From Rhodobiaceae bacterium (lineage in GTDB: Bacteria; Pseudomonadota; Alphaproteobacteria; Parvibaculales; Parvibaculaceae), in NCBI GenBank assembly GCA_003330885.1, contig CP030277.1, positions 1,674,001 through 1,738,000 of the forward strand: a stretch of 64,000 nt of DNA, read 5' to 3'. The notes under the pieces were generated by a model that was not told where the DNA came from, did no database searches, and saw only the letters and a program-made list of their open reading frames with translations. Both the position numbers and the translations under genes were made by a program. Position 1 is the stretch's first letter. Each line of letters begins with the position of its first letter. This document shows positions 37,570 through 61,645 of this stretch, in pieces.

Positions 37570-39045
37570 TCATCTCACTTCATTTACCAGCATTCCAACA
37601 GATCGCACTAGATCCGGGTACATGCGCAGTTTTGAAAGCGAACCCAATCCCACACCACTTTCGTTCTGAGTCATCTGATATTCGCGTTCAAAAATATCTT
37701 GGCGCCACCTTTGTTCAGGATCACCGCCGTATCCAGAAGTCTCGTGCTCGCGAAAGGAACTATTGGCCCCAATAGCAACCCGTACAAATAGATTGGTTAC
37801 ATTTTCGTGGGCTTTCTGTTTGTTACCTTGCCCATCATACCCCTCAAACTGAATTGACTGCTCAGAGCTTCCATAAACATCAACGAGCCGCTGTTGAGCC
37901 TCTCTGTCGACTAACACATCCAAAAATGCCTCTTCCTTTTGCTGCCAGAACACAATCAATGGCAGCAGCACAACCATCTCAATTTGGGTATCATACGGCC
38001 AGGTACTTACAATCGACTTGAGCATGTCAAAACACTGCTCGATATCCCGAAGCGACAGGTCATATTCGGAAGCCACATTAACAAAAAACGCTACATGATC
38101 ATTGTTGGGTGGAGACGAGAACAGCTCAGGCGGCAACTGATGTCGCTCGAACAATGAATTCAAAAACTCATCTTGGGAGGGCCTTCGAAACCGAAAAGTT
38201 CTATCGAAAAACCGAGATAGATATCGCCCTGAGGAAAATTTTTCACCATATACTGAGTTTATTGAATGCCTCAGTTGCTCACTATTTGTTGCGATAATGA
38301 ACACAACACCATCAACATCGAATAGGTGTTTAACTCTCTCGAGCATTGAGATCGCATATGTCGGACGACAACGATCCAACTCATCAACGAGCACAAACAA
38401 GGGGACATTAGCTATCCCTTGTTGTCGTATCTGATCCAATAAAGCAGCAAGATCTGACCTAAATTTTGCGATCTCGGATTGCTCGTTCTTGAACGCGACG
38501 ACCTTATCAACTGCCTCAGTCAACCCAGCTTTCAGCGCGTCGGCAACCACCTTGAAATTGTCATTCGCTTCCGGATCTGACGCAATCAACTCGCTAAGCT
38601 GACCTCGAATTTCATCGGCAGCCTCCCCGGTGAGTTTCTTCAGCAATTGATTTGCAGCACCCTTGCCAACCGTCACGGCAATATTTGCAACAGAACTTCG
38701 GATATTCTTCCACGTCTTCGCAAGTAACTCATGATTTTGAATAAATCTCGTCACCGGTTCATCTATTGCGGCCATCACAGCGATCATCGGATCCTCTGCA
38801 AAATCATCTTTCCATGCATCAACATAGGCAACCAAGTGCCCCTGATCCTCCAACAAATCTTGAACGCCCTTCAAAAAAAAGGTCTTACCGCCTCCCCACG
38901 CCGCATCTAGATTGAGAACGTAAGAGCGCGAATTCCCAAGCTCGTCACGCTCTATGACTCTCTGCTTCAAAAATTTGATGAGAAACTCGGCATCCTGTTT
39001 TCTACCAAGCTTGTCATGCTCCCAGTACTTTTCTGCAGCTGACAT
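37570..39045 (-). CDS. KAP family P-loop NTPase, lower-GC accessory gene
   Basis: A 491-residue KAP-type NTPase. Walker A is in NLDAAWGGGKTFFLKG, Walker B in VPLFVLVDELDRCRP, and sensor/arginine elements in VVFIIATNSEQLRHSINS and FFDRTFRFRRP. It lacks the transmembrane insert that many KAP NTPases carry. KAP NTPases are patchily distributed and often linked to mobile or defence loci. The gene is visibly richer in A and T than its neighbours, with many TTG, AAA and AAT codons, stands alone, and is packed between unrelated operons. These are signs of transfer. The start ATG 39045 has GAAGG 8 bases upstream, just below the 16-bp palindrome at 39058-39073. Function not known. Confidence 0.88.
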   Translation of the reverse strand: MSAAEKYWEHDKLGRKQDAEFLIKFLKQRVIERDELGNSRSYVLNLDAAWGGGKTFFLKGVQDLLEDQGHLVAYVDAWKDDFAEDPMIAVMAAIDEPVTRFIQNHELLAKTWKNIRSSVANIAVTVGKGAANQLLKKLTGEAADEIRGQLSELIASDPEANDNFKVVADALKAGLTEAVDKVVAFKNEQSEIAKFRSDLAALLDQIRQQGIANVPLFVLVDELDRCRPTYAISMLERVKHLFDVDGVVFIIATNSEQLRHSINSVYGEKFSSGRYLSRFFDRTFRFRRPSQDEFLNSLFERHQLPPELFSSPPNNDHVAFFVNVASEYDLSLRDIEQCFDMLKSIVSTWPYDTQIEMVVLLPLIVFWQQKEEAFLDVLVDREAQQRLVDVYGSSEQSIQFEGYDGQGNKQKAHENVTNLFVRVAIGANSSFREHETSGYGGDPEQRWRQDIFEREYQMTQNESGVGLGSLSKLRMYPDLVRSVGMLVNEVR

Positions 39046-39057
39046 GAGATGCCTTCA

Positions 39058-39073
39058 CTTTTTGATCAAAAAG
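39058..39073. promoter_or_regulatory. Perfect 16-bp palindrome at the KAP gene start
   Basis: CTTTTTGA followed directly by TCAAAAAG, a complete 16-bp palindrome with no spacer, ends 12 bp upstream of the KAP start codon. It adjoins the ribosome site. It may be an operator for autoregulation or for a host regulator. Confidence 0.5.
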
Positions 39074-39193
39074 GAAACTCTAGTTTTAGTTAGAAAGGTG
39101 TGGCTGTCCACCCCACTCATTCCCTCGCGTTCAAAGCCATTCCGGCGTAGGCTTCCTCTCTAATTGCTGAGCTTAAGAGCTGGGGCCCAAGCT

Positions 39194-39646
39194 ATGACAC
39201 CTGACCTAATCTTTCTGATCGCAACCTATGGCATCATGCCCTTCTGGCTGTTGCTGGCGCTCGCACCCAAATGGGCGTTCACCCAAACGCTGGTGCACAG
39301 CGCGCTGATTCCGATTGTTATCGGCATTGGCTACACGTTTTATGTGGCGACCGGTGCCTTCAGCGTGGAGGGTGGCGGCTTTGGCTCTCTGGAAGCGCTC
39401 ATGATCGCCTTCACCGTGCCCGAAGCGGTGATTGCCGGATGGCTCCACTATCTCGTGTTCGACCTTTTTGTCGGCGCTTGGGAAGTCCGAGACGCACAAA
39501 AGCGCGGCATCAATCACTGGCTTGTTGTGCCCTGTCTCTTCTTCACACTGATGTTGGGACCTGTCGGGCTTCTCCTCTACATCGCGCTTCGCTTCGTCAC
39601 ACGCAAAGGCGGCTGGGCCCTGGACCAAGCAGAGAACCCGGCCTGA
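39194..39646 (+). CDS. ABA4-like (DUF4281) membrane protein
   Basis: A 150-residue inner-membrane protein with four hydrophobic helices (about 4-24, 32-52, 68-90, 112-136). The segments FWLLLALAPKW, GSLEALMIAF and YLVFDLFVGAWEVRDAQKRG match the DUF4281/ABA4-like family. The plant member is needed for neoxanthin synthesis; the role in bacteria is unknown. The start was set at ATG 39194; a TTG at 39164 would add 10 residues. The NTF2-like gene begins 3 bp after its stop. Confidence 0.85.
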   Translation: MTPDLIFLIATYGIMPFWLLLALAPKWAFTQTLVHSALIPIVIGIGYTFYVATGAFSVEGGGFGSLEALMIAFTVPEAVIAGWLHYLVFDLFVGAWEVRDAQKRGINHWLVVPCLFFTLMLGPVGLLLYIALRFVTRKGGWALDQAENPA

Positions 39647-39649
39647 GCC

Positions 39650-40054
39650 ATGCGCGAGATCGAAACCCTTCTCTTTGCCAACGAGACCTTCTATCGCGCG
39701 GTCGCAGATCAGGACATGGACGCGCTGGAGGGTGTGTGGTCGGTTGCCGTGCCAGTCTCCTGCCTCCACCCGGGATGGTCCCCGCTTCACGGGCGCGATG
39801 AGGTGATGGAAAGCTGGCAGCGGATCATCCGTGGCCCAGCGCCACCTGCAATCGAGTGCCACGCCCCCACTGCACATCTCATTGGGACGACGGGCCTTGT
39901 TACCTGCTACGAGAAGATCGGCGCTGAATGGCTCATCGCCAGCAATTTATTTGTGCGCGAGGGCCAGGACTGGGCCATGGTCCACCACCAGTCGGGTCCC
40001 GTAAGCCAACCACCAGAAGGGGACGAGATCACCCCAACCCCTCAGGCAAACTGA
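39650..40054 (+). CDS. NTF2-like/SnoaL-like domain protein
   Basis: A 134-residue protein of the NTF2-like fold. It has the N-terminal helices ANETFYRAVADQDMDALEGV, SCLHPGWSPLHGRDEVMESW, and strands to the end (IASNLFVREGQDWAMVHHQS). The H-x-G-W-x-x-L-x-G-R-x-x-V motif is typical of the SnoaL_3/DUF4440-like group. These are small steroid-isomerase-fold proteins with varied or unknown roles. It follows the ABA4-like gene by 3 bp and is probably co-translated. No catalytic residue can be assigned. Confidence 0.88.
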   Translation: MREIETLLFANETFYRAVADQDMDALEGVWSVAVPVSCLHPGWSPLHGRDEVMESWQRIIRGPAPPAIECHAPTAHLIGTTGLVTCYEKIGAEWLIASNLFVREGQDWAMVHHQSGPVSQPPEGDEITPTPQAN

Positions 40055-40122
40055 CCGGCCAGCCCCAGTCACTGGCCTGGCAAAATATTGGCACACCAAC
40101 TGACATTTCTGTCACCGGGAGC

Positions 40123-40151
40123 TTGTTGCATCGCAGCACCTTGGGTATGAT
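40123..40151 (+). promoter_or_regulatory. Candidate sigma-70 promoter of the GT4/methyltransferase cluster
   Basis: TTGTTG at 40123-40128 and TATGAT at 40146-40151 are 17 bp apart, in the 268-bp gap before the glycosyltransferase gene. The implied leader is about 165 nt. I see nothing else in that gap beyond the GAAGGAGAGG ribosome site before 40323. Confidence 0.45.
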
Positions 40152-40322
40152 CCCGCCAACCGAGCACCGACCAGGTTGCAGGACACATGTCGTGCGGCCT
40201 GAATGGACGTTCACCAGGCAAAAATACTAGGACTGCCCCCGGAAAACCGAGCAGCAAGCCACTTGGCCACTGCCCTCCACCGGCTGAGAAGCGGTCCATA
40301 ACGGAATGAGAAGGAGAGGTGG

Positions 40323-41678
40323 ATGTCGCAGGCGCTGGAAAACCAGGCCCTCGCTCCTGTTGTCGAGCCGGTCGAGACGGCCGATCGCCAGGATGCCACC
40401 ATTGAAGCTATTAATGGCGACCGAGCTCTGCGGATCTTGCTGCCGAGCTATCGATCCAACCCAACCACCGGCGGCCAGGGCGTCTATATGCGCCACATCT
40501 CAAAGGCACTCGTCGAGCTGGGTCATCATGTTGATGTGATCTCAGGCCCGCCCTACCCCGATCTCGATCCCCGCGTTGGCCTGATCAAACTGCCCTCTCT
40601 TGACCTCTATGCGACACCACACCCGATCCGGGCTTTCCGCCCTTGGATGCTGAAGTCAAAAATCGACCTCTTTGAATGGTGGAGCCACAATTGGGGCGGC
40701 TTCCCAGAGCCCTACACGTTCGGCGAACGCCTTGCGGAATATATGGTCGACAAGATCGACCAATATGATGTCATGCATGACAACCAGACACTCTGCTGGG
40801 GCATGCTGAAAGTGCGCGATATGGGCCTGCCTGTCGCTGGCACGATCCATCACCCGATCACCATGGACAAACGCATCGATATTGCTGCAATGCCAAATCC
40901 CTGGATGAAATTCCTGAAATGGCGCTGGTACACCTTCCTCAACATGCAAATGAAGGTCGCCCACGAGCTTGACCCAATCATCGTTGTGTCGGAAAGCACC
41001 CGCCAGGATGTGAACAAAGACTTCGGCCTACCGCTGGATACGATGCAGGTGGTCCACCACGGCATCAACCATCTTCAGTTCCATCCAATGCCGGAAGTAA
41101 AGCGCGTCGACAATCGCTTGATCGTTTGTGCGAGCGCCGATGTGCCGCTCAAAGGCTTAATCTTCCTGATCCGGGCATACGACAAGCTCCTCAAAGAGCG
41201 TCCCGACCTGGAACTCCACGTCATCGGCAAGCTCCGCGATGGACCGACCAAGAAAGAACTGAAGCGGCGCGGTCTTATGGACAAGGTGACCTTCATCTCT
41301 GGCATGAGCGATGATGACATCACCCGTGCCTATGCCGAAGCAACCATGGTGATCTCACCTTCTGTCTATGAAGGCTTCGGATTCCCCGCGGGCGAGGCCA
41401 TGTCCTGCGGTGCGCCTGTTATCGCGACAACCGGCGGCTCCTTGCCAGAAGTTGTCGGCGATGCCGGTATCGTTGTAGAACACTCAAATCCAGAAGCACT
41501 GGCCGAGGCCATTGCAGACCTTCTCGACAATCCAGAAAAACGCGACGAACTGGGCCGCAAAGCCCGCCAGCGTGTGCTCGACCATTTCAAATGGGAACGG
41601 ACCGCGCGCCAAGTCGTCGATATTTACCGTCAGGCCATGCAAGATGCAGACAATAGACTTCAACAAGCTGGGGCTTGA
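40323..41678 (+). CDS. Glycosyltransferase family 4 (GT-B fold)
   Basis: A 451-residue GT4 enzyme starting at ATG 40323, behind GAGAAGGAGAGG. About 30 residues of Ala/Glu-rich leader precede the GT-B N-domain (ALRILLPSYRSNPTTGGQGV). That domain has the glycine-rich donor/acceptor loop GGQGVYMRHISKALVELGH. The C-domain carries LIVCASADVPLKGLIFLIRA and the nucleotide-sugar motif SPSVYEGFGFPAGEAMSCGA (E-x7-E). IDLFEWWSHNWGG in the middle is unusual. It overlaps the methyltransferase gene by 35 bp. It probably glycosylates a small lipid, polyketide or glycan with the enzymes encoded after it. Acceptor unknown. Confidence 0.9.
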   Translation: MSQALENQALAPVVEPVETADRQDATIEAINGDRALRILLPSYRSNPTTGGQGVYMRHISKALVELGHHVDVISGPPYPDLDPRVGLIKLPSLDLYATPHPIRAFRPWMLKSKIDLFEWWSHNWGGFPEPYTFGERLAEYMVDKIDQYDVMHDNQTLCWGMLKVRDMGLPVAGTIHHPITMDKRIDIAAMPNPWMKFLKWRWYTFLNMQMKVAHELDPIIVVSESTRQDVNKDFGLPLDTMQVVHHGINHLQFHPMPEVKRVDNRLIVCASADVPLKGLIFLIRAYDKLLKERPDLELHVIGKLRDGPTKKELKRRGLMDKVTFISGMSDDDITRAYAEATMVISPSVYEGFGFPAGEAMSCGAPVIATTGGSLPEVVGDAGIVVEHSNPEALAEAIADLLDNPEKRDELGRKARQRVLDHFKWERTARQVVDIYRQAMQDADNRLQQAGA

Positions 41679-42366
41679 GGACGGCGAGTATGTGCTTGAC
41701 CTTGGCTGCGGCGAAGGACGGCATGTGCATGCTCTCTATCACAGCAAAGTCTGTAACGTGGTCGGCATCGACCTCGCGTTTGACGATGTAAAAAAGACCT
41801 GGCAGGGTTTTGAACATTGTCCGGACCTGGAACCTGACAGCAAGCGCCGCTGCACCCTCGCGGTTGGCAACGCGCTGAGCCTTCCTTTCGCAGATAATTC
41901 CTTCGACAAAGTCGTCTGTTCCGAAGTGATGGAACACATCCCGAACTATCGCCAAGCGTTGGAAGAAGTCGCCCGCGTTCTAAAACCCGGCGGAACCTTC
42001 GCTGTCTCCGTGCCGCGCTATTGGCCAGAATGGATCTGCTGGGCCTTATCTGACGATTATCATAATGAACCAGGCGGGCATGTACGCATCTTCCGCACAA
42101 GCCGCTTGAAGAAAGATGTGGAAGCAACCGGCACCACATTCAAACATCGCCATTGGGCGCACGGACTGCACTCCCCCTATTGGTGGTTGCGCTGCGCGGT
42201 CGGTGTGAAGAAAACAGATTCCAAAATTGTCAATTTCTACCATCGCCTGCTTGTATGGGAGATCACGGACAATCCGCTTGTGACCCGCATTCTCGAAGCA
42301 ATCGCAGCGCCCTTAATGGGCAAAAGTGTCGTTCTCTATTTCGACAAGCAGGGCTCATCTTCATGA
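41644..42366 (+). CDS. Class I SAM-dependent methyltransferase
   Basis: A 240-residue Rossmann methyltransferase. Motif I is VLDLGCGEGRHVH (residues 17-29), the adenosine acidic residue is in VGIDLAFDDV, the motif before the active site is FDKVVCSEVMEHIPNY, and motif IV/V is RVLKPGGTFAVSVPRYWPEW. The ATG at 41644 lies inside the glycosyltransferase reading frame (35-bp overlap). Its TGA overlaps the next gene's start (ATGA at 42363). Such tight coupling points to one pathway. The substrate (sugar hydroxyl, lipid or amine) is not visible. Confidence 0.9.
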   Translation: MQTIDFNKLGLEDGEYVLDLGCGEGRHVHALYHSKVCNVVGIDLAFDDVKKTWQGFEHCPDLEPDSKRRCTLAVGNALSLPFADNSFDKVVCSEVMEHIPNYRQALEEVARVLKPGGTFAVSVPRYWPEWICWALSDDYHNEPGGHVRIFRTSRLKKDVEATGTTFKHRHWAHGLHSPYWWLRCAVGVKKTDSKIVNFYHRLLVWEITDNPLVTRILEAIAAPLMGKSVVLYFDKQGSSS

Positions 42367-43448
42367 CCTTACTGACCAAGGGCGACCGCCTGCCTGATGA
42401 CTTCTTTAAAGGGTCAATTGCGCGCATCAAAGAACTGCAGCGCGACAATGGCGCAATCCCTTGGTTTGATGGCGGCGTTATCGATCCATGGAACCATACA
42501 GAAGCTGCCATGGGCCTCGCTGTGCTGGGCGAGATGCAAGCGGCTGAACGCGCATACGCCTACCTTATGGATACACAGCTGGACGATGGCTCCTGGTGGG
42601 GCGAACTCGGCTCCGCAGTCCCCATGGATGAGGAAGAACAGTGCTATACAGGTGGTGAAGAAGGTGCGGGAAAACCTGTCCGCGACACGAATTTCGCTGC
42701 CTATATTGCAACCGGCGCTTGGCATCATTTCCTGCTGACCGGCGACAAGACATTCCTCACCGACATCTGGCCCCATGTAAAAAAAGCCATGGAATTCATC
42801 CTCGATCACCAGACCGAGCATGGCGACATTCGCTGGGCGGCTGATGATCCTCACACGCCAGAAGATGACGCACTCATCACAGGCTGTTCGTCGATTTATA
42901 AAAGCCTCGAATGCGCGATCCATATCGCCCGCCAAATGAATGAGCCGAGCCGCGACTGGACAATTGCCCGTCAGCGTTTGGGCGAAGCACTGCGTGACAA
43001 GCCACACAGATTTGATCGCACCTGGGAGCCAAAGACCCGGTATTCCATGGACTGGTACTACCCCGTACTTGCTGGCGTCCTGACAGGCGACGCCGCCGTC
43101 AAACGTCTCGACTGGAAGTGGGATACATTTGTCGCGGAAGGCAAAGGCTGCCGATGCGTTATCGACGAACCATGGGTGACGGTCGCTGAATCCGCAGAGC
43201 TTGTCATGGCGTTGCTCGTATCAGGACAACGCAAAAAGGCTGAGCAGCTTCTGTCCTGGCAGCACCAATGGCGCTCAGACTGTGGCGCCTACTGGATGGG
43301 CTTTCAGTTTGAGGACAAGGTCGCCTGGCCGCAAGAACGTCCTGCCTGGACCGCTGCTGCTGTCATTCTCGCAACTGATGCTGTGATCGGCATGACGCCC
43401 GCCTCGCACCTATTTGCTGAGCGGACCCTCGCCGAGGCGGCGGAGTAA
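42363..43448 (+). CDS. Alpha/alpha-toroid protein, often annotated as prenyltransferase or glycoside-hydrolase-like
   Basis: A 361-residue alpha-helical toroid protein. It has repeating helical pairs with QDG/QxxDGSW-like turns: LQRDNGAIPWFDGGVIDPWN near the start, MDTQLDDGSWWGEL at about 72-85 and WQHQWRSDCGAYWMGFQ near 305. The turns resemble QW motifs of terpene cyclases and protein prenyltransferases. There is no DXDD motif, and the chain is shorter than squalene-hopene cyclases. Families of similar build (six-hairpin glycosidases) are the alternative. It has neither signal peptide nor membrane helix. It is the third gene of the coupled GT4-methyltransferase set. Enzyme class uncertain. 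Confidence 0.7.
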   Translation: MTLLTKGDRLPDDFFKGSIARIKELQRDNGAIPWFDGGVIDPWNHTEAAMGLAVLGEMQAAERAYAYLMDTQLDDGSWWGELGSAVPMDEEEQCYTGGEEGAGKPVRDTNFAAYIATGAWHHFLLTGDKTFLTDIWPHVKKAMEFILDHQTEHGDIRWAADDPHTPEDDALITGCSSIYKSLECAIHIARQMNEPSRDWTIARQRLGEALRDKPHRFDRTWEPKTRYSMDWYYPVLAGVLTGDAAVKRLDWKWDTFVAEGKGCRCVIDEPWVTVAESAELVMALLVSGQRKKAEQLLSWQHQWRSDCGAYWMGFQFEDKVAWPQERPAWTAAAVILATDAVIGMTPASHLFAERTLAEAAE

Positions 43449-44051
43449 TCGCAGCGACTTCACGGTTTCGATCTCTTCAAAGAGCTGCGATGCAATCGCC
43501 ATCTTGTAGATCTCATAAGGTGCCTGTCCCCCGTCCTTCGGATCTGGGAACACATCATGAATGGCAAGAATACCGCCTGGAATTATCTTCGGCGCCCACA
43601 GACGATAGTCATTGAGCGCATGCTCCAGCGCATGTCCCCCATCGATAAACACCATCGCAAGCGGCGTTGCCCAATGGCGCGCCGCTACCGTCGATGGCGC
43701 CACCAGTGGAATAACACTGTCTTCAAGCTTGGCGATGCGAAGCGTTCGGCGAAACAGCGGAAACGTGTTGAGCATGCCAGTCTCTGCATCCGCGAGAGAG
43801 GGGTCGTGATGCTCCCACCCCGCCTGGTTCTCTTCTGACCCCAGATGATGGTCCAGGGCATAGAGAACCGATCCTGTTTCCTGACAAGCAAGCCCATAAT
43901 ACACCGTGGACTTCCCGCAATAGGACCCAACCTCCAGACAAGCGCCCTGCCCACTGACCTCACGCGCCGCACGATAAAGTGCATTGCCTTCAGCTGGGTC
44001 AAGAAATCCCTTGATGGTTTCAATGTCGATAGGAAGCGTCACACCAGTCAT
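43410..44051 (-). CDS. Class I SAM-dependent methyltransferase (family 24-like)
   Basis: A 213-residue methyltransferase with motif I ACLEVGSYCGKSTVYYG (residues 37-53), an acidic loop LYALDHHLGSEENQAGWEHH, and MVFIDGGHALEHALNDYRLW, in which the D-x-G-H pair resembles catechol/O-methyltransferase-like (family 24) enzymes. GGILAIHDVFPDPKDGG is the late metal-binding loop. Its end overlaps the convergent toroid gene by 39 bp. It may be the last gene of the minus-strand SDR-aldolase set (46 bp gap) or belong functionally to the opposite GT4 cluster. It is paired with the other methyltransferase only by position. Confidence 0.87.
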   Translation of the reverse strand: MTGVTLPIDIETIKGFLDPAEGNALYRAAREVSGQGACLEVGSYCGKSTVYYGLACQETGSVLYALDHHLGSEENQAGWEHHDPSLADAETGMLNTFPLFRRTLRIAKLEDSVIPLVAPSTVAARHWATPLAMVFIDGGHALEHALNDYRLWAPKIIPGGILAIHDVFPDPKDGGQAPYEIYKMAIASQLFEEIETVKSLRLLRRLGEGPLSK

Positions 44052-44097
44052 CTTGTCTCATCTCATTCGTCAAAGTCGCTCGCTTTATAAAGGATTT

Positions 44098-44730
44098 TCA
44101 CGCTCGTGCGTGGGTGATGACTGAAACAAATGCGTTGGCACGCCGGCGTGTTTCATCCAGATCCCCGCAGGGATCAAACACTGCAGCCCCAACACCAAAC
44201 CCATCCGCCCCGGCAGACCACCACTTGCCAGCATTTTCCATAGTGATCCCACCCGTCGGCAGAAGCAGCGCCTCGTCTCGCGCCATGACAGAGCGCCAGG
44301 CAGCAATCACTTTGGGACTAAGTGCCTCGGCAGGAAATATTTTCAGGCCCGCAGCCCCTGCATCCAATGCAGCAAACCCTTCCGATGGCGTGAAGACACC
44401 AGGAACTGGAATGAGCCCCACATCCAATGCACCAATCACCAGAGAAGCGTCCAGATGCGGCATGACCGCAAGCTCGCCGCCAGCATTCACCAGCGCCGCA
44501 AGGTCTTCCACCGTCCGCAGCGTGCCACCACCTACCAGAACATCATCACTGACAGAACCTCGAATGGCTTCGATGGAGTGGAGAGCCCCGTCCACATTGA
44601 GCGGCACCTCAAGAATACAAATACCTGCGTCGACCAAAGCTTGTGCTGTGGCAACAGCATGGGCAGGCTTTAGCCCCCGTAGAATGGCCACGATAGGCAT
44701 TCGTTCAAGAGAGTCTCGAAACCTGCTCAC
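44098..44730 (-). CDS. dgoA: 2-dehydro-3-deoxy-6-phosphogalactonate (KDPGal) aldolase-like
   Basis: A 210-residue class I aldolase of the KDPG/KDPGal family. The Schiff-base lysine is in AGAAGLKIFPAEAL, the catalytic glutamate in CILEVPLNVDGAL, and VGGGTLRTVEDL and PTGGITMEN form the phosphate site. The EVPLN form is like DgoA (D-galactonate pathway) rather than Eda (EVTLR). It splits 6-phospho-2-dehydro-3-deoxygalactonate to pyruvate and glyceraldehyde 3-phosphate. No dgoK, dgoD or galactonate transporter is nearby. Its start overlaps the SDR stop by 4 bp (44727-44730), so the two are coupled. Confidence 0.85.
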   Translation of the reverse strand: MSRFRDSLERMPIVAILRGLKPAHAVATAQALVDAGICILEVPLNVDGALHSIEAIRGSVSDDVLVGGGTLRTVEDLAALVNAGGELAVMPHLDASLVIGALDVGLIPVPGVFTPSEGFAALDAGAAGLKIFPAEALSPKVIAAWRSVMARDEALLLPTGGITMENAGKWWSAGADGFGVGAAVFDPCGDLDETRRRANAFVSVITHARA

Positions 44731-45572
44731 ACGTCGAGCCCCGTCATACGCAAGCTTTCCTCCCAGAGGCGCTTTGCCGCATCGGCATTCTTCGCAGCTC
44801 GCGACGGCTGCACTCTCTTCTTGCGCGTGTAGTACCCACCAGTCTGGCCGGCGACATCATCATCAGACGCCAGGTAAACACTCGTCTCCGCCCCTTTTTC
44901 CGGGGAGATCGCGAAAATCTTGCCAACCTTAAAGAAAGCGCTGAATGCGGTGTTGTTGTTTTCGCCAAACTTAGACGCAACAAAACCTGGGTGCAGACAA
45001 TTCGCCGTCACATGGCTCTCGCGCCAGCGGTCAGCCAGTTCGCGGGTGAAGAGAATGTTGGCGAGTTTGGAGCGTTGATAGGCCCGCCAGGCTGAGTAAG
45101 AGCCTTTCTGGCCATCCAGATCTGAGAAATTGAGGTCAGCACCACGGTGAGCGACGGAGGCAACAGTCACGACCCGTCCCTGATCAGCTGCCACAAGTTG
45201 GTCCTTCAACAAATTGGTGAGCAGAAACACGCTGAGATGATTAAGGGCGAAGGTGAGCTCAAACCCATCTGCAGACATCTGCTTTCCAACGAACATCGCA
45301 CCCGCATTATTCACCAAAACATCGAGCGTGGAGTGCGCTGCACGGATTTCGTCGGCAACAGCCCGCACATCATCGAACTTTGAGAGATCAGATCTAAAAA
45401 AGGCAATGTCAGGGTTGCCGGTCTGCTTTATAAGCTCTTCTACAACACGCACGCCTTTTTCTGGGTTACGTGCCACCAGACCGACCTGCGCCCCACCCTC
45501 AGCTAAACGCCGCGCTGTGATCAGGCCTATGCCATCTGTTGCGCCGGTCACAATGACCCTTTTTTGTCCCAT
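44727..45572 (-). CDS. Short-chain dehydrogenase/reductase (retinol-dehydrogenase-like)
   Basis: A 281-residue classical SDR starting at ATG 45572 (MGQKRVIVTGATDGIGLI), with GAGGCGGG upstream; an earlier in-frame ATG at 45623 is not supported. Motifs are VTGATDGIG (TGxxxGxG), LVNNAGAMF (NNAG), RVVTVASVA with the catalytic Ser, and YQRSKLAN (YxxxK). The GAETSVYLASDDDVAGQTGG stretch and C-terminal KAAKRLWEES-like end fit the retinol dehydrogenase/WWOX-type SDR subgroup. It overlaps the KDPGal-like aldolase, although such SDRs usually act on lipophilic alcohols. The pathway link is unclear. Confidence 0.88.
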   Translation of the reverse strand: MGQKRVIVTGATDGIGLITARRLAEGGAQVGLVARNPEKGVRVVEELIKQTGNPDIAFFRSDLSKFDDVRAVADEIRAAHSTLDVLVNNAGAMFVGKQMSADGFELTFALNHLSVFLLTNLLKDQLVAADQGRVVTVASVAHRGADLNFSDLDGQKGSYSAWRAYQRSKLANILFTRELADRWRESHVTANCLHPGFVASKFGENNNTAFSAFFKVGKIFAISPEKGAETSVYLASDDDVAGQTGGYYTRKKRVQPSRAAKNADAAKRLWEESLRMTGLDV

Positions 45573-45735
45573 TTTGTCCCGCCTCTGTCGTGTCAGCCCA
45601 ATACAGAAACAACTTGTTAACACCTAAACGCCATTTGCCCCCTGTTTTTGTCCAGCTTCTGACAATCGGTCAACGATTGAGCAATAAACCTCCTCAATAC
45701 TAGCGGAATTCGGGATTTCATCAGGGGTATGGCGG

Positions 45736-55419: not shown

Positions 55420-56505
55420 ATGTATAAGACCCTGAAAAAAGTCGCACTCAGCGGCGCTGCCCTCGCCCTCCTCCCAGCTGCCGCGATGGCCGAAACTTCC
55501 TACCCCCGGATCGAAGCGGTCATTCCATTCGAAATCCAACATGACTATGCATTCGACTCAGATGTATCGGCGAATGAGCTTCACAACACGTTTGCGGTGA
55601 TTGAGCCTGAAATATCCATCCAGTTTTCAGAAAACTGGTCAATCGAAGCCGGTCTTGTTTTTGAAAATGTGAACGATCCGATTGATGATCGTTTCTTCGA
55701 AGACCAGGGCCTCTTCATTGAACAATTGTTCCTGCAATATGCTGGCGACAACTTCACCGTCATCGCGGGTAAGTTCAATCCTGTCTTCGGTGTCGCGTGG
55801 GACCGCGCTCCTGGCATCTATGGTGTCGACTTTGCGGAAGATTATGAAATCACCGAACGGATCGGTTTTGGCGCAGACTACACATTCGGCAGCGAAGCAT
55901 CCGGCGAGCACACAGTGTCGGCCTCTACATTTTTTGCTGACACGTCTTTCCTCGCACAAACCTTCATCAACAGCCGTGGGCAGCCTCGGATTGGCGATGG
56001 CGGCCCAAGCAACACTGAAGATTTCTCCTCGTTTGCAGTGAGCCTGGACAGTGAAAGCGTTCCAGCCCTTGGCGGCCTTGGCTATACGCTGGGCATCTCG
56101 CATCAGGGAGAAGGTCGTGGCAATACAGATGACCAGCTCGGCCTAGCGGTAGGCGTCTTTGGCAGCTTTGACATCACAGACAACCTGGCCTTCGAACCAG
56201 TCGTCGAATACGTCATCCTCGAAAATGCTGGCGGCACCGTTGCAGATACGGACTACTACACCGTTGGTGGCGCACTCCTTCATGGTCCATGGAATGTTTC
56301 CCTCTCCTACACAGGCCGGAACATGGACCCCAACACAGCTGGGGCTGCCGATGTGGAAGACCACCTCTTCCAGGCTTCAACTGGCTACGCATTTGAGAAC
56401 GGTCTCACGGCTGACTTCGGCTACCGCTTTGCTGAAGAAGGTCGCGTTGATACGCATATTCTAGGCCTGCTCTTCACCTACGAACTGGAAGTGTCGACCA
56501 ACTAA
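55420..56505 (+). CDS. Outer-membrane beta-barrel porin-like protein
   Basis: A 361-residue barrel. The signal peptide is 1-24 (ALLPAAAMAE). The mature chain shows alternating polar/hydrophobic strands (ISIQFSENWSIEAGLVFENV, LFLQYAGDNFTVIAGKFNPV, FAVSLDSESVPALGGLGYTL, VSLSYTGRNM) with turns rich in Gly and Asp. It ends GLLFTYELEVSTN, not the classic terminal Phe. The chain has GKFNPVFG, as in OprO/P-like and LbtU-type barrels. It heads the probable iron locus and lies 35 bp before the imelysin gene. A role in iron or chelate passage through the outer membrane is inferred from context. Confidence 0.85.
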   Translation: MYKTLKKVALSGAALALLPAAAMAETSYPRIEAVIPFEIQHDYAFDSDVSANELHNTFAVIEPEISIQFSENWSIEAGLVFENVNDPIDDRFFEDQGLFIEQLFLQYAGDNFTVIAGKFNPVFGVAWDRAPGIYGVDFAEDYEITERIGFGADYTFGSEASGEHTVSASTFFADTSFLAQTFINSRGQPRIGDGGPSNTEDFSSFAVSLDSESVPALGGLGYTLGISHQGEGRGNTDDQLGLAVGVFGSFDITDNLAFEPVVEYVILENAGGTVADTDYYTVGGALLHGPWNVSLSYTGRNMDPNTAGAADVEDHLFQASTGYAFENGLTADFGYRFAEEGRVDTHILGLLFTYELEVSTN

Positions 56506-56540
56506 GTCGACACCCTGTTTCAATTTCAAGGAAAAGAGAT

Positions 56541-57806
56541 ATGAAGAAATTCTCCCTTGCCATTGCAGCTGGTGCCTTCTTGGCATCAGCACCGATGGCA
56601 ACAGCTGCAGAGCCCGCCGACATATTGGCGACCTATGCAAACATCGCAGAAGCTGGGTATACGGACTCACTGACAACTGCCCAGACTTTGAAGTCTGCCA
56701 TTGCAGCTCTCATTGAATCTCCATCAGACGAAACGCTCAGCACTGCGAAAGAAGCATGGGTTGCAGCCCGCGTTCCTTATCAGCAGACAGAAGCCTATCG
56801 CTTTGGCAATGTGATCGTCGATGAGTGGGAAGGCAAAGTAAACGCCTGGCCGCTGGATGAAGGCCTGATCGACTATGTCGACTCCGGTGCCTATGGCGAA
56901 GAAAGCGACGAAAACGCTTTTTATGCAGCCAACATCATCGCCAATGAGAAACTTACCATTGGTGGCCGCGAGATTGACGCTACCAACATTACGCCTGAGC
57001 TGCTTCAGAGCCTGCACGAAGTTGATGAAGTAGAAGCCAATGTTGCAACGGGTTACCACGCCATTGAATTTCTTCTTTGGGGCCAGGACCTGAATGGCAC
57101 AGACGCCGGAGCTGGCAATCGCCCTGCAACGGATTATGCATCGGGTGATGCATGCACAGGTGGAAACTGTGATCGTCGCGCTGCCTATCTTGTCGCAGCA
57201 ACCGATCTCATGATTTCCGATCTCGAAGAAATGGTTGCAGCCTGGGGTCAGAACGGTCCAGCCCGCGCAGCACTTAGCGATGGCAAAGAAGGCCTCGGAA
57301 TTATTCTGACCGGCCTGGGCAGCCTCTCCTACGGTGAACTTGCTGGCGAGCGCATGCGCCTTGGCCTCATGCTTCATGATCCTGAAGAGGAACATGATTG
57401 CTTCGCCGACAACACCCATGACTCCCACTATTACGATGCACTGGGCATCTCAAACGTTTATCGCGGAAGTTACAAACGCGTTGACGGAACTATTGTCAGT
57501 GGCGCAAGCCTCTCTGATCTCGTTCGTGGTGTATCTGCCGATCTCGACGCAGAAATGATCACAAAACTTGAGGCAACTCAGGCCGCCATGCGCGTCATGA
57601 AGGACAAAGCTGACAGTGGCGAAATGGCCTATGACCAGATGATCGGTGAAGGCAATGACGAAGGCAATGCCATCGTCCAAGCCGCCATAGATGGGCTAGT
57701 CGCGCAGACCCGCACCATTGAGCGGATTGTTGCGGCCATCGAGCTCGACGATATCGAGATCGAAGGATCAGACAGCCTCGACAATCCGGAAGCTGTTTTC
57801 CAATAA
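56541..57806 (+). CDS. Imelysin family protein (peptidase M75/iron-regulated IrpA-like)
   Basis: A 421-residue periplasmic imelysin. The signal peptide ends at SAPMATAAEPA. The hallmark metal-site motif GxHxxE is G171-Y-H173-A-I-E176 in ATGYHAIEFLLWGQDL, followed by RAAYLVAATDLMISDLEEM. The second helical repeat has FADNTHDSHYYDALGISNVY. Related proteins (IrpA, EfeO-type, ICMP) bind iron or haem and are induced by iron shortage. It has the intact GxHxxE motif, unlike the second imelysin at 59445. It is followed by two strong hairpins. Confidence 0.92.
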   Translation: MKKFSLAIAAGAFLASAPMATAAEPADILATYANIAEAGYTDSLTTAQTLKSAIAALIESPSDETLSTAKEAWVAARVPYQQTEAYRFGNVIVDEWEGKVNAWPLDEGLIDYVDSGAYGEESDENAFYAANIIANEKLTIGGREIDATNITPELLQSLHEVDEVEANVATGYHAIEFLLWGQDLNGTDAGAGNRPATDYASGDACTGGNCDRRAAYLVAATDLMISDLEEMVAAWGQNGPARAALSDGKEGLGIILTGLGSLSYGELAGERMRLGLMLHDPEEEHDCFADNTHDSHYYDALGISNVYRGSYKRVDGTIVSGASLSDLVRGVSADLDAEMITKLEATQAAMRVMKDKADSGEMAYDQMIGEGNDEGNAIVQAAIDGLVAQTRTIERIVAAIELDDIEIEGSDSLDNPEAVFQ

Positions 57807-57825
57807 GCTTCACTCGCAGTGAAGC
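57807..57825 (+). terminator. Perfect hairpin at the end of the first imelysin gene
   Basis: GCTTCACT (57807-57814) pairs exactly with AGTGAAGC (57818-57825) around CGC, directly after the stop codon. No T-run follows. It probably acts with the next hairpin in partial termination or in protecting the upstream mRNA. Confidence 0.55.
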
Positions 57826-57829
57826 CTCT

Positions 57830-57897
57830 CCCACTTGAGGCGTTTCAGGATCAAAGCGGGCCGGGTATCCGTCCTGAAACGCCTCAAACAGAGTGGG
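57830..57897. promoter_or_regulatory. Long hairpin with perfect 16-bp stem between imelysin and di-haem genes
   Basis: TTGAGGCGTTTCAGGA (57835-57850) pairs perfectly with TCCTGAAACGCCTCAA (57872-57887). CCCACT (57830-57835) and AGTGGG (57892-57897) extend it, with ACAG bulged. The 21-base loop includes GGGCCGGG. No T-run follows, so it could attenuate or stabilise differential expression of the operon. Confidence 0.6.
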
Positions 57898-57976
57898 TTA
57901 GAGCAACGGGCCCGGTGTCAAATGCGGCATCGGGCCACATTTTTATTTGGTGCCCCAGTTGCGTATAATTCTCAGA

Positions 57977-59467
57977 GTGAGTAACAAATTCAACATAGCA
58001 AGCCTCGCGCTGGCACTCGTCCTTGCCTCTCCTGCCACAGCAGAGATGACGGCGGAGGAGCGCGCTGAGATCCTGGCGCCGACGACAGACTTCAGCTCTG
58101 CGGAACCCCACGAAAATCTGCCCGGTGGTCTTGCAACCAACACACGCCGCTTCGACAGAGAAGCTTTTTCACAGCCCTCGCAAAATATGAGCTTTGAAGC
58201 CCGGGGTGATTTCTTCATTGGCAACGGCTTTTTCAAACGCCTGTGGGTCACGGCACCCAGTTCAACCACATCTGCAGATGGGCTCGGACCTCTCTACAAC
58301 GCCCGTGCTTGCCAACGGTGCCATCTGAAAGACGGCCGCGGCCACCCGCCTGCAAATGAAGACGACAATGCTGTTTCCATGTTTCTGCGGGTGTCCATCC
58401 CACCTCAGACCGCCGAACAGAAACAAGCCATTGCCGACCATCTGATCAATGTCGTGCCTGAACCCACTTATGGCGGACAGCTGCAGGACATCGCCATACC
58501 CGGCCATGCCGCCGAAGGCCGCATGGTAATCGAGTACACTGATGAAGAGGTGAGCTTTGCAGACGGAGAAACTGTCACGCTGCGCGCACCAAGCTATAGC
58601 TTTACCGATCTGGGCTACGGGCCCTTACGCGAAGACGCCCTCTTCTCCCCCCGTATTGCATCCCCCATGATCGGGCTCGGCCTCCTCGAAGCCATCGCTG
58701 AAGAAGACATCCTCGCAGCTGCTGATCCCGACGATGCAGACAGGGACGGCATTTCAGGCACGCCCAAATATATTTGGAGCCGGAACCAGGAGCGCGTCAT
58801 GCTCGCCCGCTTCGGCTGGAAGCTTGGCAATCCCACAATAGAAGACCAGTCATCTGATGCCATGGCCGGCGACATTGGGATCTCCAATCCCCTCTTCCCG
58901 GCTCACGGTGGCGATTGCACCGCCAATCAACGCACCTGCCTGGAAGCCCCAGCAGGAATTGGCGGACCCGGCGGCGACCTTGAGGCATCCGCTAAAGTCA
59001 TGGACAAGATCTTCTTCTATTCCCGGCATCTAGCGGTACCTGCCCGCCGAAATGTGGACGACCCCCAGGTGCTCCGGGGCAAGGAACTTTTCTACCAGGC
59101 GAACTGCACGAGCTGCCACACGCCCAAACATGCAACCCGCAATGATGACGACGTAGACCCTGCCCTTCGCGGCCAACTCATCTGGCCCTACACAGATTTG
59201 CTCCTGCACGATATGGGCGAGGGCCTCGCCGATGGACGTCCAGAAGGAACAGCGACAGGCTCTGAATGGCGGACCGCGCCACTCTGGGGCATCGGCATGA
59301 CAGAAAAGGTCAACGACCATACATTCTTCCTCCATGACGGTCGGGCGCGCAATCTCACGGAAGCAATTTTGTGGCATGGTGGCGAAGCGATGGCGGCACG
59401 GGAGACGTTCCGCACTATGGAAAAACCAGACAGGGAAGCCCTCATTGCCTTTCTCAAAAGCCTTTAA
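57977..59467 (+). CDS. Di-haem oxidoreductase (DHOR/DUF1111, thiol-oxidoreductase-like)
   Basis: A 496-residue periplasmic cytochrome. Starting at GTG 57977, the signal peptide is SNKFNIASLALALVLASPAT, then AEMTAEERAE. A further GTG at 57950 or TTG at 57947 would add up to 10 residues; none has a good ribosome site. The two haem motifs are CQRCH (in ARACQRCHLKDGRGH) and CTSCH (in NCTSCHTPKH), with GIGMTEKVNDHTFFLHDGRA towards the end. The MauG/CCP-like DHOR group is known to sit next to imelysin genes in iron loci. It may oxidise or reduce iron passing between the imelysins. Its end overlaps the second imelysin by 23 bp. Confidence 0.9.
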   Translation: MSNKFNIASLALALVLASPATAEMTAEERAEILAPTTDFSSAEPHENLPGGLATNTRRFDREAFSQPSQNMSFEARGDFFIGNGFFKRLWVTAPSSTTSADGLGPLYNARACQRCHLKDGRGHPPANEDDNAVSMFLRVSIPPQTAEQKQAIADHLINVVPEPTYGGQLQDIAIPGHAAEGRMVIEYTDEEVSFADGETVTLRAPSYSFTDLGYGPLREDALFSPRIASPMIGLGLLEAIAEEDILAAADPDDADRDGISGTPKYIWSRNQERVMLARFGWKLGNPTIEDQSSDAMAGDIGISNPLFPAHGGDCTANQRTCLEAPAGIGGPGGDLEASAKVMDKIFFYSRHLAVPARRNVDDPQVLRGKELFYQANCTSCHTPKHATRNDDDVDPALRGQLIWPYTDLLLHDMGEGLADGRPEGTATGSEWRTAPLWGIGMTEKVNDHTFFLHDGRARNLTEAILWHGGEAMAARETFRTMEKPDREALIAFLKSL

Positions 59468-60557
59468 CCGCACCCTCAAAGCCGCATCGGCGGCGATGCT
59501 GGTAACCGGCGGCTTGCTGTCACCAGCCACTGCGGATGCGATCAGCAGTGATCAGGCGTCAGCCCTCATCACAGCGCTGACGGACCAGCTTGTTGTGCCT
59601 GCTTACACCCGGCTCGCCGAAGAAAGCGGCAACCTTTCCGACGCTCTCAACTCCTATTGCGCAGCGCAAAGCGCCAATGGTCGCTTGAAGGTCGAAAGCC
59701 AATTCCACGCGACAATGGATGCCTGGCAGCGGGCACAGATCATCCAGTTCGGCCCCATCTATGAAAACAAAGGCCCTGCCCGCTTCCAGTTCTGGCCAGA
59801 CAAACGCGGAACAGGACAGAGACAATTGCGCCAGGTCTTGAACAATCAGGATGAAGCCGTCCTTCCATCAGGCGCTTTGGCCGATAAGAGCGTCGCACTC
59901 GGCGATCTGCAGGCTCTTGAATATGTTCTGTTCGATGATCCCGCAATCACAGCGGCCCAGGACGGTTTTGCCTGTCACTACGCAGTCGCCATTGCCCGCA
60001 ATCAGGCGATGCAAGCTGCCGAGGTCGTTCAAATGTGGATCGGAAACAATGGGTTTCGTGATCAGGTCCTCTCAGCAGCAGAAGGCACCGATGTTTTCTT
60101 CGACGAAAAGGAGGCTGCAAGCCGGTTCCTAAACGATATTGCCGGTGCGATTGACATCGTACGCCTGCAAAAACTCGACCGCCCCATGGGCCTGACCATC
60201 ACCAGCGCGCGCCCTAAACGGACGGAAAACTGGCGGAGCCAGAGGTCCCTGCGCAACATTCGGCTCAACATTGAAAGCGTGCAACAGTTCCTGACGGTCA
60301 AAGACGGGTTTGGTGATCTGCTGATCAGCATCGGCAAAGAAACAACTGCAACAGCGACCCAGGAGCTGGTAAGCCAAATCCTCGCTGACATTGCCGCCTT
60401 TGACCAACCATTGTCTATGCTTGTGGAAGACCCGGACGCCCGTAGCGACCTGGAAAGCCTGCTGACAAAACTGCGCAGCCTTCAATCTCTCATCAGAGAA
60501 CAATTGGCCCAGGACTTAGGACTTGTCCCCGGCTTCAATGCGACGGATGGCGACTAG
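59445..60557 (+). CDS. Second imelysin family protein, altered metal motif
   Basis: A 370-residue imelysin starting at TTG 59445 (MPFSKAFNRTLKAASAAML), 23 bp inside the di-haem gene, with AGGGA 9 bases upstream. The signal peptide ends at PATADA. Imelysin features are SDALNSYCAAQSANGRLKVE, MDAWQRAQIIQFGPIYENKG and IVRLQKLDRPMGLTITSARP. At the place of GxHxxE it has G153-D-L-Q156-A-L-E159 (GDLQALEYVLFD), so the metal-binding histidine is Gln while the glutamate is kept. Such His-lacking imelysins are known as the second type in these loci. Its stop overlaps the next start by one base. Confidence 0.9.
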   Translation: MPFSKAFNRTLKAASAAMLVTGGLLSPATADAISSDQASALITALTDQLVVPAYTRLAEESGNLSDALNSYCAAQSANGRLKVESQFHATMDAWQRAQIIQFGPIYENKGPARFQFWPDKRGTGQRQLRQVLNNQDEAVLPSGALADKSVALGDLQALEYVLFDDPAITAAQDGFACHYAVAIARNQAMQAAEVVQMWIGNNGFRDQVLSAAEGTDVFFDEKEAASRFLNDIAGAIDIVRLQKLDRPMGLTITSARPKRTENWRSQRSLRNIRLNIESVQQFLTVKDGFGDLLISIGKETTATATQELVSQILADIAAFDQPLSMLVEDPDARSDLESLLTKLRSLQSLIREQLAQDLGLVPGFNATDGD

Positions 60558-61645
60558 TGAACCTCTCTCGCCGACATATTCTGCAAGGCTCTGCGGCTGC
60601 GGCAATGGTCGCAGGTCCCCTGCCAGCGATTGCCACCACTGCAAACGCACGTTGGATGGGTTGCAGACAGGTAGGGGAAGCCTATTTCGCCACACTCTTT
60701 GACGAGACCGGCCATGTGCATCTCGATGTACAGTTACCGGGACGAGGGCATGACGTCGTGCCCTCACCGGATGGACGCCGTGTTGTCATCATGGCGCGAC
60801 GGCCTGACAGGTTTGCCCTTGTCGTTGATCTGAACTCTGGAGAGGTACACCACCACATGACGGCAAGTGACGGCCATCACTTTTATGGTCATGGATGTTT
60901 CTCAGCCGACAGCACTTTGTTCTACACAAGTGAAAACCATTACGAGACCGGCGACGGCGTCATCGGCGTGCGAGATGCCAACAACGACTTCGAACTCCTG
61001 GGACATTTCGCGAGCGGCGGTATTGGACCCCACGAGATCCTGCTCACAGCTGACCGGAAGGCGCTTGCCATCGCTAATGGCGGTATCCGTACCCACCCAG
61101 ATACGGGGCGTTCAAAACTCAACCTCGAAACCATGGCCCCCTCTCTCACGCTCGTGGATCATGAAAGCGGTGAGCTTATGTCACGCCACAGCCTTGACGC
61201 TGAACATCACCAGCTTTCGATCCGGCATCTGGCCGCAGGGCCAAATGGCCTTGCAGCAGCCCTGCAATATGAGGGACCAAAGAGAGATAGAGTCCCCCTA
61301 TTGGCCCTATTCGATGGCACTGACTTGCAGCTGGCAGAAACACCTCCCGCAGTGGCGAGGGCCATGCGCAATTACGCGGGCAGTGTCGCGTTTGACACAA
61401 GCGGTGACATCATCGCGCTTACCTGCCCGCGCGGAAACCTAGTCTCGTTCTGGTCTTCAGACGATGGGAGCTATCTGGGTTTCCACACAGCGCGCGATGT
61501 CTGTGGCATTGCCCCCCTCGAAAACCCTGGTCACTTTGCTCTGACCGCCGGAGACATCACCTTCCAAGCAACCTTGGACACCACGAGAACCACCGCGCAA
61601 TTTGCAGAAACGCAGTGGGATAATCACTTAGTGTCTGTCGCCTGA
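60557..61645 (+). CDS. DUF1513 protein with Tat signal, beta-propeller-like
   Basis: A 362-residue protein starting at GTG 60557 (MNLSRRHILQGSAAAAM). The S-R-R-x-x-L twin-arginine motif and following hydrophobic stretch predict Tat export to the periplasm. DUF1513 motifs are GRGHDVVPSPDGRRVVIMAR, GHGCFSADSTLFYTSENHYE, GIGPHEILLTADRKALAIAN and GSVAFDTSGDIIALTCPRGN. The repeats look like a WD/propeller-type fold. It is the last gene of the imelysin locus. A cofactor is suggested by Tat export, but none can be seen. Role in iron handling is inferred from position. Confidence 0.92.
   Translation: MNLSRRHILQGSAAAAMVAGPLPAIATTANARWMGCRQVGEAYFATLFDETGHVHLDVQLPGRGHDVVPSPDGRRVVIMARRPDRFALVVDLNSGEVHHHMTASDGHHFYGHGCFSADSTLFYTSENHYETGDGVIGVRDANNDFELLGHFASGGIGPHEILLTADRKALAIANGGIRTHPDTGRSKLNLETMAPSLTLVDHESGELMSRHSLDAEHHQLSIRHLAAGPNGLAAALQYEGPKRDRVPLLALFDGTDLQLAETPPAVARAMRNYAGSVAFDTSGDIIALTCPRGNLVSFWSSDDGSYLGFHTARDVCGIAPLENPGHFALTAGDITFQATLDTTRTTAQFAETQWDNHLVSVA

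Follow-up and report, generated by a model that had tools for sequence, protein, structure and literature searches.

Which product could be made by a compact cluster in which a glycosyltransferase, a methyltransferase, and an alpha-toroid protein are encoded by overlapping genes and faced by a second methyltransferase gene? The cluster lies in the window, the whole 64,000-nucleotide stretch of DNA analyzed here, and an original prediction had read it as a pathway with no known product. The four genes are real, and our open reading frames reproduced exactly the coordinates, strands, and overlaps given by that prediction: manT (40323-41678, plus strand, 451 aa) overlaps pmeT3 (41644-42366, plus strand, 240 aa) by 35 bp, pmeT3 shares a 4-bp ATGA overlap with mmpH (42363-43448, plus strand, 361 aa), and meT1 (43410-44051, minus strand, 213 aa) converges on mmpH with a 39-bp 3′ overlap. 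A Shine-Dalgarno-like AAGGAG, read from the sequence, stands at 40311-40316 (plus strand), 6 bases 5′ of the manT ATG. The promoter that had been placed at 40123-40151 was not recovered: a scan of 39900-44300, limited to the sigma-70 consensus type, gave 0 matches, whereas shuffled sequences gave 2.2 on average. We propose that the locus is, very probably, a cluster for the biosynthesis and recycling of methylmannose polysaccharide (MMP), a rare sugar chain that binds fats, in an alphaproteobacterium. The mycobacterial MMP cluster yields an 11- to 14-mer of alpha-(1→4)-linked 3-O-methylmannan with a 1-O-methyl end, and we infer that such a polymer is made here.

The best PDB relative was an MMP-pathway enzyme for three of the four proteins (ManT, MmpH, and MeT1). 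The toroid protein matched MmpH of Mycobacterium hassiacum (7qsj_A) with a phmmer E value of 1.4e-84. Its AF2 model (pLDDT 92.8) is an (alpha/alpha)6 barrel like that of 7qsj and aligned with 7qsj_A over 336 residues with a VIA Z score of 48.3, an rmsd of 2.1 Å, and 42% identity, the second-best chain of the fold search reaching a Z score of 34.2. As judged from sequence and predicted fold, the toroid is the MMP alpha-(1→4)-endomannosidase MmpH. The structure comparison that had been recommended for this protein found a glycosidase site matching a described pathway, the very outcome that the original prediction had set against its own reading. D41, E276, and E279 of the window protein correspond to D47, E262, and E265 and are all retained, as are W49, N101, M215, Y219, and W315 (reference numbering); the site-lining F102 and T163 are variable in other carriers. 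The Asp at position 50, which is conserved in described homologues and is one of two candidate catalytic acids (the other being D47), is replaced by Asn (N44) in the window. Position 50 is Asn in 67/67 distinct alphaproteobacterial sequences and Asp in all 49 others (9/9 gamma-, 17/17 delta-, and 23/23 actinobacterial sequences). The D50A mutant of the M. hassiacum enzyme is described as having lost most of its activity (PMC9883506). We did not count Asp50 as defining MmpH, and the natural Asn-50 clade provides a ready test of which Asp acts as the catalytic acid.

ManT matched 7qsg_A over residues 25 to 439 (phmmer E value, 1.9e-102) and the Pfam family Glycos_transf_1 (E value, 3e-35). Its residues G50, H176, K277, D330, E350, and E358 correspond to G15, H142, K240, D293, E313, and E321 of the reference, so that the GT4 residues G15, H142, K240, E313, and E321 are all present; the proposed guanine contact at position 293 is variable in groups other than Actinobacteria, and its Asp is retained in the window. 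We infer that ManT is a GT4 alpha-(1→4)-mannosyltransferase, which would use GDP-mannose to lengthen the chain. The genome encodes a GDP-mannose pyrophosphorylase/isomerase (E value, 5.4e-198); the corresponding family GMP_PMI (TIGR01479) had no match in 5 of 12 genomes, an absence that is uninformative because Mycobacterium and Streptomyces are among the five. MeT1 matched a single PDB sequence, 6g7d_A (entries 6g7d, 6g80, and 6h40), which we take to be MeT1, with an E value of 6.3e-62 over residues 11 to 206 of 213. It belongs to Pfam family Methyltransf_24, has 31 near-invariant positions in an alignment of 115 rows that include the reference, and is predicted to be the 1-O-methyltransferase that caps the reducing end. 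The remaining protein, pMeT3, is a class I SAM methyltransferase (Methyltransf_11; E value, 5.6e-23) with 42 to 81% identity to 24 relatives and 38 invariant columns. Its AF2 model (pLDDT 90.8) has a Rossmann methyltransferase fold that retrieved generic methyltransferases only (best Z score, 22.9, with many near ties), matches that carry no information on specificity. In all four lineages the gene is flanked by manT and mmpH, and its product, labeled "putative" in print (PMC9883506), is here a putative 3-O-methyltransferase.

By analogy with the mycobacterial enzymes, MmpH would generate short primers by cutting the mature alpha-(1→4)-linked 3-O-methylmannan, ManT would add mannose from GDP-mannose onto them, pMeT3 would methylate O-3, and MeT1 would cap the free reducing end. 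Acting together in the cytosol, the four enzymes would turn fragments of the polymer into new copies of it. The original prediction was right to see a compact unit for a methylated, methyl-capped oligo- or polysaccharide, but the product class is a known one, and the core synthase that it missed, so that it sought the scaffold elsewhere, is encoded in the cluster as the chain-building enzyme ManT.

The four genes lie together in the order manT-pmeT3-mmpH with a convergent meT1, as in known MMP clusters, and they were found in identical order and strands at 43 of 46 loci of the class and at 62 of 80 loci from a second set of named genomes. At the remaining 21 loci at least one gene was missing within the stretch examined, and among the loci with a complete set (46 plus 80 loci examined) a rearranged order was found 0 times. 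Such recurrence argues for an arrangement that is more than chance, and the possibility that synteny is confined to one strain is dispelled by its spread across the family, the class, and other lineages. The cluster was present in 35/37 genomes of the bacterium's own family (its own genome counted), 34/385 genomes sampled from the class, 25/35 genomes of a SAR86 family, and 56/100 genomes of the order to which a Syntrophaceae genome belongs, where 6 of the 56 matches are short or contig-end fragments (G467, G476, G529, G532, G534, and G552) and some noncarriers may be incomplete genomes. In a quick, unrooted tree of ManT, MeT3, and MmpH (1,005 columns) from the window and 72 named loci, which omits 8 of the 80 because the extracted ManT was shorter than 380 or MeT3 shorter than 200 residues, the alphaproteobacteria, SAR86, the deltaproteobacteria, and the Actinobacteria were each set apart from the rest by a branch (SH-aLRT, 98 to 100). 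This separation led us to reject a recent transfer from Actinobacteria; ancient transfers may have occurred, as the tree is unrooted, 42 of its rows are odd in composition, and it contains some long end branches. Together, these results suggest that the MMP polymer is not an actinobacterial specialty. SAR86-type cells are abundant in the ocean, and if they make MMP, a methylated mannan occurs in abundant ocean bacteria.

The characterized clusters comprise MSMEG_6481 to MSMEG_6484 of Mycobacterium smegmatis (Maranha et al. 2023, PMC9883506) and MHAS_04402 (ManT), 04403 (pMeT3), 04404 (MmpH), and 04405 (MeT1) of M. hassiacum (PMC9883506), whose locus tags give the same gene content and order as the window. 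Mycobacterium simulans L133 also has this order with a convergent meT1, although its matched stretches are separated by gaps where the window genes overlap. The mycobacterial cluster shares with the window the catalytic base (E262) and one candidate acid (D47) of MmpH, as well as E313, E321, K240, and H142 of ManT, but the window differs in its Gram-negative host, whose class we assign from its nearest named relatives and which lacks type I fatty acid synthase (FAS-I), in its Asn at MmpH position 50, and in its own side of the tree. An acetylated MMP is known from Streptomyces griseus (Harris & Gray 1977, cited in PMC4555173). In Streptomycetaceae, 15/22 loci have the four genes with a convergent meT1, and FAS-I is absent from the one Streptomyces genome tested; unlike in the window, other genes and a distance of over 400 bp separate meT1 from the rest in 15/15. 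In 20 of 23 actinobacterial loci, the gene divergent from manT belongs to a TetR-like family (Pfam on one). Syntrophales and deltaproteobacterial clusters have the manT-pmeT3-mmpH core, with a convergent meT1 in 10 of 17 loci; 14 of 15 loci of at least 9 kb also encode a hexapeptide-repeat protein of the acyltransferase type (Pfam on two), and 14 of 15 encode a B12-binding radical SAM protein (Pfam on one). These two genes lie mostly between mmpH and meT1. PMC9883506, which characterized MmpH and ManT, sought the cluster in actinobacterial genomes, and the word "proteobacteria" occurs in it 0 times. In the open-access literature, we found no MMP product isolated from any proteobacterium and no report of the cluster or polymer outside Actinobacteria.

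The physiological role of polymethylated polysaccharides is called poorly defined in PMC2674218, which ties it mainly to FAS-I. The FAS-I domain PF08354 was found in 0 of the 34 carriers of the class and, among 12 carriers from all lineages, in Mycobacterium only. The existence of carriers without FAS-I, some with genomes as small as 1.3 to 2.0 Mb, uncouples the polymer from this enzyme and gives access to Gram-negative hosts for functional tests by simple deletion. The absence of FAS-I points, more weakly than the evidence for the pathway, to a chain that may serve as a soluble carrier of long-chain acyl-CoA in cells oxidizing many fatty acids. In the class, carriers were richer in acyl-CoA dehydrogenases (family medians, 9.7 versus 2.6 per Mb; P = 1.4e-6), the counts being uncurated first-look candidates over rounded genome sizes, with families of more than one genome averaged and kinship between families ignored. 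This test left out 88 of the 385 genomes, which had no acyl-CoA dehydrogenase match and included 0 carriers. The association is a correlation, and 39 of 66 genomes with at least 7 acyl-CoA dehydrogenases per Mb lack the cluster. The polymer may be linked to the degradation of fats and not to their synthesis by the enzyme proposed as its partner. We tentatively suggest, at somewhat less than even confidence, that MMP is an ancient and widespread cytosolic acyl-CoA carrier of fatty-acid-oxidizing bacteria (SAR86, OCS116- and PS1-type cells, Parvibaculum-like alphaproteobacteria, syntrophs, and Actinobacteria), that the mycobacterial FAS-I link is a special case, and that the alphaproteobacterial MmpH functions although Asn replaces one of the proposed catalytic Asp residues.

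It is also quite conceivable, if short of probable, that the enzymes and polymer are as proposed but serve in cold adaptation or another stress, and that the acyl-CoA dehydrogenase link reflects shared lifestyle or ancestry. In favor of this view, growth of M. smegmatis at 15°C was slowed in an MmpH-negative mutant (PMC9883506). The families compared are not statistically independent, and the 25 carriers of the SAR86 family were not significantly richer in acyl-CoA dehydrogenases than its 10 noncarriers (12.7 versus 11.7 per Mb; P = 0.21). Against this view, the link repeats in the order of the Syntrophaceae genome (P = 0.005), where mmpH was present in 0 of the 13 genomes in which acyl-CoA dehydrogenase candidates numbered fewer than 8 and in 56/87 others, and aldehyde dehydrogenases, a control catabolic family, had no family-level link with carriers in the class (P = 0.19). 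Counted per genome, however, aldehyde dehydrogenases also differed slightly (3.4 versus 3.0 per Mb; P = 0.027), a result that speaks against the acyl-CoA reading.

A 3-O-methylmannan destined for the cell surface or lipopolysaccharide (LPS), rather than a free cytosolic polymer, appears improbable. Oligotropha carboxidovorans does have an alpha-(1→2)-linked 3-O-methylmannan O-antigen (PMC9883506), and the SAR86 cluster sits among LPS-core-type genes, with hldE-, hldD-, waaA-, and lpxL-like neighbors judged by eye and one assigned to the Kdo/WaaP kinase family by Pfam. However, the mycobacterial enzymes require a free reducing end in the case of MeT1 and take free MMP as substrate in the case of MmpH (PMC9883506), the few alphaproteobacterial and Syntrophales neighbors scanned were not LPS genes, and the four proteins have no N-terminal signal sequence evident by eye. 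By Pfam, 0 of the 8 proteins scanned between 37570 and 44730 was a flippase, polymerase, exporter, or ligase, in agreement with the predicted lack of a transporter. An ABC-ATPase-like gene was seen by eye near meT1 in 7 OCS116/PS1/IMCC14465-type loci, which tempers the argument against a surface polymer.

The view originally put forward, in which an undescribed pathway with a terpene-cyclase-like toroid makes a new type of methylated glycoside or of capped oligosaccharide, is hardly credible given the homology of ManT, MmpH, and MeT1 and the fold of MmpH, its support being a weak SQHop_cyclase_N match (E value, 0.011) and local PDB matches of 32 residues to squalene-hopene cyclase (E value, about 1e-3). 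Squalene-hopene cyclases are marked by a DXDD motif and a two-barrel fold; the toroid lacks DXDD when read by eye, as had been noted, and forms one barrel of 361 residues, so fold and motif rule out a terpene cyclase or prenyltransferase. Pfam and NCBIfam matches of the toroid to GH95, GH116, rhamnosidase, and oligosaccharide amylase were weak or partial and far below MmpH. Its barrel fold is shared with the glucosylglycerate hydrolase GgH of the 6-O-methylglucose lipopolysaccharide (MGLP) pathway (Z score, about 26). MGLP, an analog of MMP, is likewise an intracellular polysaccharide with alpha-(1→4) linkages and many methyl groups, and it binds acyl chains in vitro, but it is built of glucose and carries 6-O-methyl and octanoyl groups (PMC4555173).

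The four open reading frames and their overlaps, manT (40323-41678, +), pmeT3 (41644-42366, +), mmpH (42363-43448, +) and meT1 (43410-44051, -), have the coordinates of the original prediction. Their starts are credible, since a Shine-Dalgarno-like AAGGAG precedes manT and an ATGA joins the second and third genes. The promoter proposed for them found no support in a sigma-70 consensus scan. We searched all four proteins against all PDB sequences, and for three of them the top match belongs to a single described pathway. The toroid protein matched 7qsj, a methylmannose polysaccharide (MMP) hydrolase, MmpH (E 1.4e-84; runner-up 1e-6), and its AlphaFold2 model (pLDDT 92.8) superimposed on 7qsj with Z 48.3 and 2.1 A over 336 residues at 42% identity, the next chain scoring Z 34.2. 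The convergent methyltransferase matched only 6g7d, 6g80 and 6h40 (E 6.3e-62), which we take to be MeT1. The remaining methyltransferase (pMeT3) had generic relatives only (best E 6.4e-14). The GT4 protein matched 7qsg (E 1.9e-102; runner-up 2.5e-22), deposited as a D-inositol 3-phosphate glycosyltransferase. We take this entry to be the ManT structure of M. hassiacum from PMC9883506, because the residues numbered in that paper are present in its sequence.

The M. hassiacum locus tags given in PMC9883506 (ManT 04402, pMeT3 04403, MmpH 04404, MeT1 04405) run in the same order as the window's genes, and meT1 is likewise convergent in Mycobacterium simulans. The question of an unknown product is resolved: we assign these genes to the MMP system, in a variant form distinguished by a substitution at one catalytic-site position in all sequences of the class examined, a Gram-negative host and the absence of type I fatty acid synthase (FAS-I). 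We infer that the organism produces MMP. New here are the range of the cluster, the substitution at MmpH position 50 and an association with acyl-CoA dehydrogenases.

According to Maranha et al. (PMC9883506), the MmpH mutant E262A is dead and D47A and D50A are both strongly lowered in activity, which leaves both Asp residues as candidates for the acid. Across 132 MmpH rows, D47, W49, M215, Y219, E262, E265 and W315 were invariant, N101 had one exception (an unread X), and two other residues lining the site, F102 and T163, varied in some rows. Position 50 was Asn in all 67 distinct alphaproteobacterial sequences and Asp in 9/9 SAR86/gammaproteobacterial, 17/17 deltaproteobacterial and 23/23 actinobacterial ones. 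Most simply, D47 would be the acid and the enzyme would tolerate Asn at position 50; an altered specificity of the Asn-50 enzymes is possible. Among the 79 ManT rows of at least 380 residues, H142, K240, E313 and E321 were kept in all and G15 in 78, the remaining row having a gap; the window's ManT has all five. D293, a proposed guanine contact, is present in the window as D330 and varies elsewhere.

Within the family to which the window belongs, 35 of 37 genomes, including the one that holds the window, had an MmpH relative (the two without a match are 74% and 88% complete), and the search as a whole gave 37/61 genomes. An evenly drawn sample of Alphaproteobacteria gave 34/385 genomes (27/315 of good quality; 22/276 genera), the family of a SAR86 genome 25/35 and the order of a Syntrophaceae genome 56/100. 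A species-genome scan returned at least 585 encoding stretches; the best 80, which give no measure of the number of actinobacterial carriers, came from Rhodobiaceae/Parvibaculum, OCS116, PS1, IMCC14465 and Phenylobacterium MAGs among the alphaproteobacteria, and otherwise from SAR86, Syntrophales and other deltaproteobacteria, Streptomycetaceae and one Mycobacterium. All four genes stood in canonical order and strands at 43/46 loci gathered from the class and, among these best 80, at 28/31 alphaproteobacterial, 9/9 gammaproteobacterial, 9/17 deltaproteobacterial and 16/23 actinobacterial loci, the two sets overlapping in some genomes. The other loci lacked a gene within the stretch covered; none with four genes was rearranged. 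The mmpH of IMCC14465 (L038 and L065, the same place on one contig) carries one in-frame TAG, for which a sequencing error, a pseudogene and recoding are candidates. The window's nearest named relative in the tree was Rhodobiaceae bacterium SP61 (L054; 89% over 1003 columns), from which we would assign its organism to the Alphaproteobacteria. Every lineage formed one side of a branch, which makes it less likely that the window's lineage acquired the cluster recently.

According to PMC2674218 and PMC4555173, MMP modulates FAS-I, and long-chain acyl chains and acyl-CoA bind to it in vitro. Of 12 carriers, only Mycobacterium had the FAS-I domain PF08354, as did the C. glutamicum control; the domain was absent from eight alphaproteobacteria and one SAR86, one Syntrophaceae and one Streptomyces genome. 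PF18314 gave the same result for the 12 carriers, and PF08354 was found in 0/34 carrier genomes of the class sample. As none of the tested carriers outside Mycobacterium has PF08354, FAS-I cannot be the common partner of MMP. We compared acyl-CoA dehydrogenase candidates across the 297 class genomes in which PF02770 matched one or more times. The median was 9.7 per Mb in 34 carriers versus 3.1 in the others, and 9.7 versus 2.6 by family (12 carrier families among 132; Mann-Whitney p 1.4e-6, AUC 0.92), with kinship between families outside the test. Carriers made up 0/127 genomes below 3 candidates per Mb and 27/66 at 7 or more. Of the genomes no larger than 2.0 Mb, 73 had a candidate; the ten carriers among them had 10-30, and the other 63 had a median of 2 and a maximum of 13. 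Aldehyde dehydrogenases, the control, showed no family-level link (3.3 versus 2.9, p 0.19) but differed slightly when single genomes were compared (p 0.027). Carriers were also richer in acyl-CoA dehydrogenases in the Syntrophaceae-centred order (6.9 versus 4.8 per Mb, p 0.005), where mmpH occurred in 0/13 genomes with fewer than 8 candidates versus 56/87 of the remainder. In the SAR86 family, all 35 genomes had at least 10 candidates and carriers did not differ significantly from non-carriers. Within these limits, we take the acyl-CoA dehydrogenase richness of carrier genomes to favour a role for MMP as a carrier in acyl-CoA catabolism.

A hexapeptide-repeat protein and a B12-binding radical SAM protein each accompanied the deltaproteobacterial cluster at 14 of the 15 loci that span 9 kb or more (Pfam on two of the former and one of the latter), as at 8899-11275 of the Syntrophaceae locus L097 and likewise at L118 and L121, from Syntrophales-type genomes; they possibly tailor the polymer further. 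Because acetylated MMP is reported in Streptomyces (cited in PMC4555173), a testable guess is that deltaproteobacteria make O-acylated MMP. In SAR86 (L083-L087, L091, L102, L109), LPS-core-type genes surrounded the cluster, a Kdo/WaaP kinase family being assigned by Pfam for L083 and the rest judged by eye. A TetR-like family gene diverged from manT at 20/23 actinobacterial loci (L130, 4902-5693, and 19 others; Pfam assigned the one examined to TetR_C_20) and is a candidate regulator of the actinobacterial MMP genes. The alpha/beta hydrolase upstream of the cluster at 20/34 alphaproteobacterial loci may be nothing beyond local synteny.

In the window, a KAP-family P-loop NTPase gene (37570-39045, -; Pfam E 7.4e-38) lies between the alpha/beta hydrolase and an ABA4-like gene, a place where the close relatives L053 and L054 lack it; 38001-40000 is the window's lowest-GC 2-kb step (0.517). 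The region looks like an insertion, and a defence role for the NTPase would be a guess. A KHG/KDPG-type aldolase gene (44098-44730, -) and an SDR-like gene assigned by eye (44727-45623, -) share the strand of meT1, which may be read from their transcript since it follows 46 bp behind. Farther on, a protein without a Pfam match, an imelysin, a di-haem oxidoreductase, a further ORF and a DUF1513 protein stand in a row (55420-61645, +; Pfam for three) that looks like an iron-uptake-type module.
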